Assembly: GCF_000003815.2 (NCBI RefSeq)
Contig: NC_049986.1
Span: 17,578,046-17,642,045 of the forward strand
Length of the DNA: 64,000 nucleotides
DNA from: Branchiostoma floridae
Lineage: Eukaryota; Chordata; Leptocardii; Amphioxiformes; Branchiostomatidae
Direction of reading: 5' to 3'
Notes under the pieces: model-generated
The model's database searches: none
What the model saw: only the letters and a program-made list of their open reading frames with translations
What the model was told of the DNA's origin: nothing
Made by a program: the position numbers and the translations under genes
Part shown: positions 46,001 to 61,344 of the stretch, piece by piece
Numbering within the stretch: the first letter of the stretch is position 1
Layout of the letters: every line of letters begins with the position of its first letter

Positions 46001-49000
46001 TTATAAAGGATTGGACAAAAAGATTGATTTAACAGAGTACCTATACGTACATGTACCACCACTACCAGTACTGTGTTTTATGATCATTTGGCATATTCCA
46101 ATTTTTCAATTTTGCTCTGGTAAAAGCTGCAATCATTTGATGAGCAATTCTCTTGTCAATTTAAATGACAACTCATATACATAAATTGTCTTGTTCAAAG
46201 TGCTGGCATTAAGCCCTAGTCCCAAACCTTGCCTGTGATCATCAAAAAGTAGGAAAACCTTGTCCTATCAGTTCTCAGTGTGGTGACAATGCCTGCGGCT
46301 CCCCCTGTAGGTTACCACCCTAAGTGCAGAGGCAGACCGTCTACAGTCTGCCCACCCAGAGAGTGCAGAGGACATTGGGACCAAGAAGGATGAAGTGTTG
46401 GCTGCCTGGGACAGAATCAAGACCAAGGTAGGCTTTGTAGTTTAAATAAGAAAATCTTACACTCTATGTATCAATGTGGAGAATTTGAATATCATGCATG
46501 TTTTTACGTTAACAAATTTTAAACAGTATTTTGAACCTGTATAATCATATATACTGTACATTAAGCTCAACCCTACTTGTTGAAACCAGCTGGGAAGCAC
46601 ATGTAGTCTTCTGTGAAGTGGACATAAGTACTAGTGGAACTAGATCAAGATAACTTCTCTTTCCAATTTGCTAACAACTTTTTGTGAGACGTCCTAATAA
46701 TATCTCCTTGCCTTGGAATGTATTTTTCTGTCAACAGAATGTTTTTCTCTACAATGTGCTAATCAAGTTGCATTGTTGAAACCAGTTAAGTCCATAAGTC
46801 ACATCGGATCAAGATACCTACTCTTTCCAAGTTGCAGGAACTTTTAGTAGGATATCAAAAAAATGTCTTGGAGTGTAGTTTACTGTCAACATAATATTCC
46901 TTTTTATCTGTAGAATCTGTTAACCCAGTTGTGTTGTCATTGGTTGTTTAACAGGGAGAGGAGCATAAGTCTCATCTGAACGATTCCTACCGGCTGGAAC
47001 GCTTCTCTTTCCTATTTGATGATAACTTTTAATAATGTCTTCTTGCCTTGGAATGTATTTTTCTGTCAACAGATAAGAATCTGCTAACCAAGTTGTGTTG
47101 TTTAACACTAACAGGGAGAGGAGCGTAAGTCTCGTCTGAACGACTCCTACCGTCTGCAACGCTTCCTGGCGGATCACCGCGACCTGGTGTCCTGGTGTAA
47201 CGAGATGCGCGCCCTCATCTCCGCAGATGAGCTTGCGAAGGACGTACCCGGGGCAGAGGCTCTGCTGGACAAACATCAGGAGCACAAGGTGGGTATTCAC
47301 AATGGTGGATAAGGTGGTGGTTTCCAAGTTAGATAATGGTTTATTTGATCAAAGATAAGAAGTGTCCCACTGTGGCAGGCAAGTGGCTGAATTGCTGCCA
47401 GGACATTGCAGAATCATATCATAGAACAGCAGTTAAAATATAGTTGTAGCTTTTAACAGCGAGGTAGGTGGCCATGTGAACGTTCATCTGTGGTATAAGT
47501 TATTTTAGAAGGACCTGTTGTGGGACCGTGTAGCGCAGTGGCAGTTTCTTTGGCCCGTGACCGAGAGGTTGCGGGTTCGAATCCGCCTGCTGTGTTACCG
47601 ATCTTGTGCCGTTGGGAAAGGCACTTTACACGACTTTCCTCACTTCACTTAAGTGAAAATGAGTACCTAGCTTCGGCTCGGGCCGTCCTTCGGATAGGAC
47701 GTTAAATGGAAGTCCCGTGTTTGGGGAGAGCAACACCCCAAGCACGTTAAAGAACCCGCCACATGTGCGAACATCCACCCGAGCGGATCAAACCATTCTG
47801 GCCAAAAATAGGGGTAGGGAATCTCCCGAGCAGCCCTCGTAACCCCTGCTTCGCCTATTGGGTCTGTTAGTCCTCACTCCATTGGGCTGGTCTCAATCAT
47901 GATGTTTCTGACCTAGGGTGAAGAGTTGCTGTTACAGTTCCAATCATGTAAGCCGTAACCTTGAGTGGCCTTCAGGCCTTGGGAAGGATTGACATTTTAT
48001 AAGAATGTTTCCTGCTGTTTTGTTGCAGGGAGAGATTGATGCTCGTGAGGACAGTTTCCGCACCACAGCCGAGGCAGGACAGAGCCTGTTGGAGGAAAAC
48101 CACTTTGCTTCGGATGAAGTCAAGGAGAAGGTAGATTGGATTTTGCCAACACGTATGTAGTATAACTTGCCTGTGATGTTTTCTTTTAATGGAGTTACTG
48201 CTCAAGTCAATGTCATAGTGGTTGTGTCCTTATACCTAATCCTGACCAGTCTTTAGAAATAGTCATGTTTCTGGGTCAAATTGTTTTTTGTAGTTTTAAA
48301 TGTATCAAGGGTTACATGATAAACATGACATGGTCTTGGTATGTGTGCTCGTGGAAAAATAAAAAGTTCAATCTGACTGTAATACCAAAATTTTTGTCCA
48401 CGGCTTACATGTACCCGAATTACCTAGGTTAGCAAATGATTTTGAAATACTACTGTAAATGCAGAAAATTTGCGGTGGTTTAATGTTTGCGGTTTGCTCG
48501 GTGGGAGCTTCACCGCGAACTTAAAACCACCGCAAACATTTTACCATGGCAGTAAAAGACTACCGTGCATGGTGCTACCGTAAACTTAAAACCACCACGA
48601 AAAGTCCCTTCTCCGGCTATCGCAAAATTAAATCCCCGCGAACTTAAATGCATTTACAGTATATCGTAACACCTGTGTGTTTGTTGTCCACTTCGCAGCT
48701 TGTGGCCCTGGCCAATGAGAAGACGTCATTGCTTGAGCTGTGGGACGAGCGACACGTGCAGTACGAACAGTGCCTCGACCTTCAGCTGTTCTACCGCGAT
48801 GTTGAACAGGCCGAGGCCTGGATGGGCAAACAGGAGGTGAGTAGATCATCAGAACCTTCAAGAAAAAAGTGACCTGTATTTTCTACAGTGATGTGACCTT
48901 CCACAGGGTAATACTGACTCCTAGCTAGAAGTAGATCCAGTCAGTATTGCAAACAGGAGGTTAGTAGTTCATTAGAATCTTCAAGTTATCAGAAAAAAGT

Positions 49001-61344: not shown

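Follow-up and report, generated by a model that had tools for sequence, protein, structure and literature searches.

Short local duplications across exon-intron boundaries of alpha-spectrin and other genes in the amphioxus Branchiostoma floridae

The alpha-spectrin locus and four duplicated exon edges

The stretch of DNA analyzed here (the window, 64,000 nucleotides, G000:C8:17578046-17642045) belongs to the B. floridae genome, which comprises 513 Mb in 431 contigs. It carries a gene whose predicted protein starts near position 37079 and extends past the window end. The first 264 residues of this protein have spectrin alpha, erythrocytic 1 as their best PDB match (E 3.8e-220), and family matches place an SH3 domain within the protein and EF hands at its end; the gene is therefore identified as alpha-spectrin. 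Flavin-monooxygenase-like genes, so named on visual inspection of their translation, stand in a row over approximately positions 1-12300. Several repeats are also seen in the window, including an ATA run of 66 units (7965-8162), two arrays (22175-22527 and 22586-23041), a 115-nt unit in 17 copies (24112-26072), nested inverted repeats whose ends resemble those of a MITE (48451-48661), and an inverted pair with 55-nt arms (60126-60312).

Exons were called by a small purpose-built gene finder, trained on 53 of 75 spectrin matches from starting splice matrices, and all exon coordinates given here are its predictions from a single assembly. For the exons 47115-47288, 48699-48836, and 50797-50952 it returned exactly the edges of the first-pass annotation of this DNA. 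Where that annotation had an exon at 61285-61344, one setting of the gene finder gave 61285-61379, and the stricter setting, on which the counts below are based, gave no exon there. This proposed 20-codon exon is thus weakly supported and has an uncertain end; it is in phase at both ends, lies within an intron of about 6.7 kb, and could be an optional cassette. The SH3i cassette of vertebrates, which also has 20 residues, was considered for it and rejected, since sequence and position differ; as described in PMC3751641, the SH3i insert has another sequence and directly follows the SH3 domain.

The first-pass annotation had proposed that at these four exons an exon edge, together with neighboring intron, was duplicated into the intron. 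All four duplications are confirmed. Each edge was aligned, with gaps, to its intron copy, and in none of the cases did any of 500 dinucleotide shuffles match the observed score. The features given here for these four exons are all on the forward strand. Case 1 concerns the acceptor of exon 47115-47288, which encodes spectrin-repeat sequence and has its 5' edge duplicated. A unit of approximately 160 nt, present in about three decayed copies (46643-47165), crosses this acceptor, and the segment 47076-47165 aligns with 46912-47005 with a score of 59 (highest shuffle 16.5). The copy includes a ghost exon start at 46955-47005 with its AG intact. Case 2 concerns the donor of exon 48699-48836, whose 3' edge (48826-48862) is repeated at 48949-48985 with an intact GT (score 29, against 13 for the highest shuffle); an 89-nt repeat comes next, and the whole spans 48826-49164.

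Case 3, at the donor of exon 50797-50952, is a 79-nt unit present five times (50929-51330), each with the exon end and a GC donor (score 55.5; highest shuffle 16). Three copies are identical. The four copies reproduce the GC of the true donor and are identical around the site; the exon ends in DESYK and the next exon reads DPTNLQGK. Ahead of the same exon, four copies of a 41-nt unit (50601-50766) stop about 30 nt before position 50797 and leave that edge uncrossed. Case 4 concerns the acceptor of the proposed exon 61285-61344, where 61247-61310 aligns with a ghost acceptor edge at 61078-61143 (score 34.5; highest shuffle 14). The match is a single one of 66 nt with a spacing of 167 rather than a head-to-tail repeat, and the decoy AG is broken and reads TG.

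Cases 1 and 3 are head-to-tail and thus take the form of a minisatellite-like tandem repeat laid across the exon-intron boundary. Cases 2 and 4 also cross the boundary, but their matches fill only 69% and 40%, respectively, of the distance between copies. The annotation had further claimed that such edge duplication recurs within the gene and leaves ghost exons, which is supported, with six further alpha-spectrin edges crossed past the window (window-extended positions 70678, 72729, 73514, 81915, 90663, and 92577). Its description of the decoy splice sites as intact holds for cases 1-3 and fails for case 4. The suggestion that introns grow in this way agrees with the share of the intron made up by the arrays, 69%, 61%, and 44% in cases 1, 2, and 3, respectively. 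The accompanying suggestion that splice sites slide was not borne out, as in cases 1-3 the protein fits the copy adjoining the exon body.

Frequency of edge duplications among genes

Local duplications were called without gaps, at lags of 10-1200 and scores of at least 17, which yielded 463 pairs over 264 kb, whereas a complement control yielded 1. Low-complexity pairs were left out before counting, together with opposite-strand exons, exons shorter than 40 nt, and exons below a score of 9 or 12, depending on the analysis. With exons scoring at least 9, duplications cross 27 edges in six regions (10/128, 1/104, 16/52, 0/64, 0/74, and 0/4); with exons scoring at least 12, they cross 24 of 350 edges in five genes. 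Both types of edge are affected, 14 acceptors and 11 donors.

The crossed edges are distributed very unevenly, with 23 of the 24 in two of the five genes. Alpha-spectrin has 9 of 92 high-confidence edges crossed, or 10 of 94 when exon 61285-61344 is added. Dystrophin (G000:C9:24692001-24722000), with 14 of 48, is a stronger case. Two control genes that we take to be beta-spectrin-like have 1 of 90 and 0 of 52 edges crossed, and a nesprin-like gene, so named from one Pfam match, has 0 of 68, together 1 of 210. When edges are treated as independent, alpha-spectrin differs from these three poor genes with P 0.0001, and dystrophin exceeds alpha-spectrin in edge rate with P 0.007. Most of the control genes belong to the spectrin superfamily; WD40 genes were dropped from the controls, the WD40 motif being a repeat in its own right.

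Other families are affected as well. The start of a motor-domain exon of a kinesin gene (G000:C2:31967588-31968002) lies in a unit of approximately 152 nt that occurs about three times, the ghost exon copies standing about 152 nt apart ahead of the true exon; this one array was noticed when the duplication tables of kinesin and myosin were inspected by eye only. A flavin-monooxygenase-like gene has one acceptor edge duplicated, about 6340 nt before the window. A process local to the spectrin gene, as the first-pass annotation had envisaged, is not supported, and one confined to alpha-spectrin is rejected in view of the dystrophin, kinesin, and flavin-monooxygenase-like cases. An edge rate at least equal to that of alpha-spectrin, the outcome that the annotation itself had named as refuting, is seen in dystrophin and not in the three poor genes. 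In eight 5-kb stretches, the shortened first eight of 80 places drawn at random, 11 duplication clusters were found in 40 kb, against 24 in the 57 kb of alpha-spectrin, so the overall duplication load is of the same order.

At 24 of 25 edges the lag lies between 79 and 319 nt. Coverage of the lag by the match was measured on 24 of the 25, one edge with a lag above 600 being excluded: the match covers at least 90% of the lag (head-to-tail) at 11 of the 24 edges and less than 70% (spaced) at another 11. Among 37 clusters away from edges, 18 are head-to-tail and 16 spaced. Copies differ by 8-9% on average, some are identical, and partial units are present.

Decoy splice sites, placement, and origin of the duplications

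Of 43 copies at 27 edges, 42 have an intact decoy dinucleotide; the broken site of case 4 does not belong to this set. Among the 26 edges that have an intact decoy, 20 have a best decoy that equals or exceeds the true site in strength. The strength of a site alone therefore cannot decide which copy is used, and pairing across the exon can; we infer that exon definition selects the true copy. The predicted decoy products of cases 1-3, including that of the decoy at 46955, run into stop codons, as do those at three of four further edges tested; one further decoy product, from exon 70412-70678, is open, though out of frame.

We estimate at about 80% the probability that these edges are amphioxus mirages, that is, short local duplications that took in the exon-intron boundary, arose in the germline, are handled by exon definition, and make introns grow. 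A duplication that includes an edge does not break up the coding sequence, since the copy on the exon body still has its partner site. The duplications would originate in germline DNA by ordinary tandem or short-range copying on a small scale, after which some arrays may expand and homogenize as minisatellites do. The copy on the exon body would be the closest to the site at the other end of the exon, and exon definition would pair these two and pass over the outer decoys. In cases 1-3 a transcript spliced at a decoy would run into a stop codon; alleles that mis-splice would be removed, and the outer copies would decay into intron. The net result would be introns that grow around an unchanged protein. 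The recurrence of the pattern in four other genes (dystrophin, kinesin, flavin-monooxygenase-like, and one of the beta-spectrin-like genes) is consistent with this explanation. Other observations speak against it. The term "tandem" is a poor description of the present state of the 11 of 24 edges where the match covers less than 70% of the spacing, the further decoy product from exon 70412-70678 is open, and plain neutral duplication does not predict an excess of duplications at edges.

This excess was estimated by random placement in five genes, the C8 region before alpha-spectrin and a separate stretch with 0/4 edges being excluded. Clusters were placed at random within the gene, and placements with exon in both copies were forbidden. 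Edges are crossed by 24 of 61 clusters against 10.2 expected gene-wide, a number reached in none of 200 placements, and against 9.2 expected when placement is kept to the same intron. Such figures favor a process aimed at exon edges, working for example through transcription, splicing, or the chromatin of exon edges in the germline and making them mutational hot spots, an explanation we hold to be possible though doubtful. It gains from a similar excess among copies at least 95% identical, of which 5 of 15 cross an edge against 2.2 expected (P 0.04). It loses from copies less than 90% identical, in which there is little excess gene-wide (11/43 against 7.9, P 0.12; against 6.3 within the intron, P 0.01), and from the confinement of nearly all crossed edges to two of the five genes. 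Duplications away from edges also lie nearer to exons than random ones (31 clusters in five genes, median 182 against 328 nt), and thus the zone rather than the edge may be prone.

The same excess might instead reflect survivorship and detection, and this too we consider only tentatively: duplications would fall anywhere, and those bearing exon would stay detectable longer because their true copy is constrained. Two further tests masked the exons, to allow for edge cases that might remain visible longer through the constraint on their exon half. In the strict test 10 of 51 clusters crossed an edge, with 6.3 expected (P 0.08), a drop that favors survivorship and weighs against an edge-aimed process. 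It needs an unbroken match up to the edge, and cases such as case 1 are blocked by indels. A tolerant test, which counted duplications detectable from the intron alone, gave 18 of 51 against 7.7, with none of 500 placements as high, in favor of an edge-aimed process, although its design followed knowledge of the strict result and is weakened by that. Survivorship is countered by the persistence of the excess in this tolerant test and among copies at least 95% identical, and by exonic copy identity (953/1048) that is not above intronic identity (749/810), the flavin-monooxygenase edge included. When whole regions were used for placement, edges were crossed 10 times against 4.4 in C8 (P 0.02) and 16 times against 5.5 in C9 (0/300), and no edge excess was found in the other four regions. 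Among the three five-gene tests (unmasked, strict, and tolerant), two show more edge crossings than random placement gives. The excess is moderate and probably real, exon edges may be preferred, and the excess is perhaps a property of the near-exon zone rather than of the edge itself.

Two other explanations appear far less probable. The outer copies might be used, and selection would then maintain their decoys for alternative or regulatory splicing. In favor of such use, core splice positions match in 84 of 85 instances, compared with 450 of 498 positions of the intron flank (Fisher P 0.005), in a set of 16 edges that have 15 or more matching nt on each side. If only the true copy were constrained and the ghosts drifted, however, 95.2% agreement would be expected, for which 84/85 has P 0.08; moreover, the segments were picked for crossing an edge, which favors matches there. 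The core splice sites of the ghosts are well kept, but within what ghost drift alone allows. With decoys of cases 1-3 leading to stops and that of case 4 broken, the case for selection on decoys is weak, and we judge this explanation very improbable. An assembly artefact from collapsed or joined haplotypes would find a basis in the high heterozygosity of amphioxus. One published globin mirage seemed mis-assembled in the draft (PMC3087553). Against this stand the average difference of 8-9% between copies (some being identical), the partial units among them, and the recurrence of the pattern at unlinked places; for the published cases, trace data (PMC3087553) and resequencing (PMC3902484) spoke against it. 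Such an artefact we likewise judge very improbable.

Known mirages and what is added

Both the phenomenon and its reading as intron gain have already been published. Minisatellite-like duplications of intron-exon boundaries were named mirages in amphioxus Adh3, globin, and other genes, and a model of intron gain through them is in print; their mechanism was called unclear, and the mirages themselves were held to be perhaps more general in cephalochordates (PMC3087553). The published units are 10-72 and 150-160 bp and occur at both boundary types, and RT-PCR of Adh3 and globin suggests regular splicing despite the mirages (PMC3087553). The Adh3 repeats, of 10-72 bp, show somatic length instability (cited via PMC3087553). 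Mirage repeats of 60 and 108 bp were described in PGBD5, with troponin C mentioned, and lancelet repeats that bear splice sites were reported without aberrant mRNA (PMC3902484). The huntingtin paper mentions tandem repeat elements, and the part of it covered contains no boundary copies (PMC2206037).

The present duplications share with the mirages of PMC3087553 the copying of acceptors or donors, units of 150-160 bp, parts of ghost exons, and cryptic splice signals. They differ in the genes involved, in the GC donor and 79-nt units of case 3, and in that about half of the edges counted here are spaced rather than head-to-tail. With Adh3, PGBD5, and troponin C they have in common tandem repeats bearing splice sites in lancelet genes; somatic length instability is reported for Adh3. 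Mirages were previously reported gene by gene (PMC3087553), and no earlier genome-wide count is announced in the titles or abstract openings of the papers listed by searches on mirages and boundary duplications. Our contribution consists of further genes, counts of edges, the unevenness between genes, and tests of edge preference. The counts suggest that mirages can be frequent yet very uneven between genes. Intron creation by internal duplication, reportedly the subject of work by Rogers in 1989 and by Gao and Lynch in 2009, likewise uses duplications with splice signals as raw material for introns; here, in contrast, existing introns lengthen and no new intron is shown.

A bolder reading, which we think rather unlikely, is that exon edges are true germline hot spots for short local duplication, uneven between genes (14/48, 9/92, and 1/210), and that a process coupled to transcription or splicing makes them so. 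If it were true, this process would lengthen introns and seed new splice sites. The arrays also offer a natural test of exon definition, in which sites of similar strength stand side by side and the inner one is needed for an intact protein.
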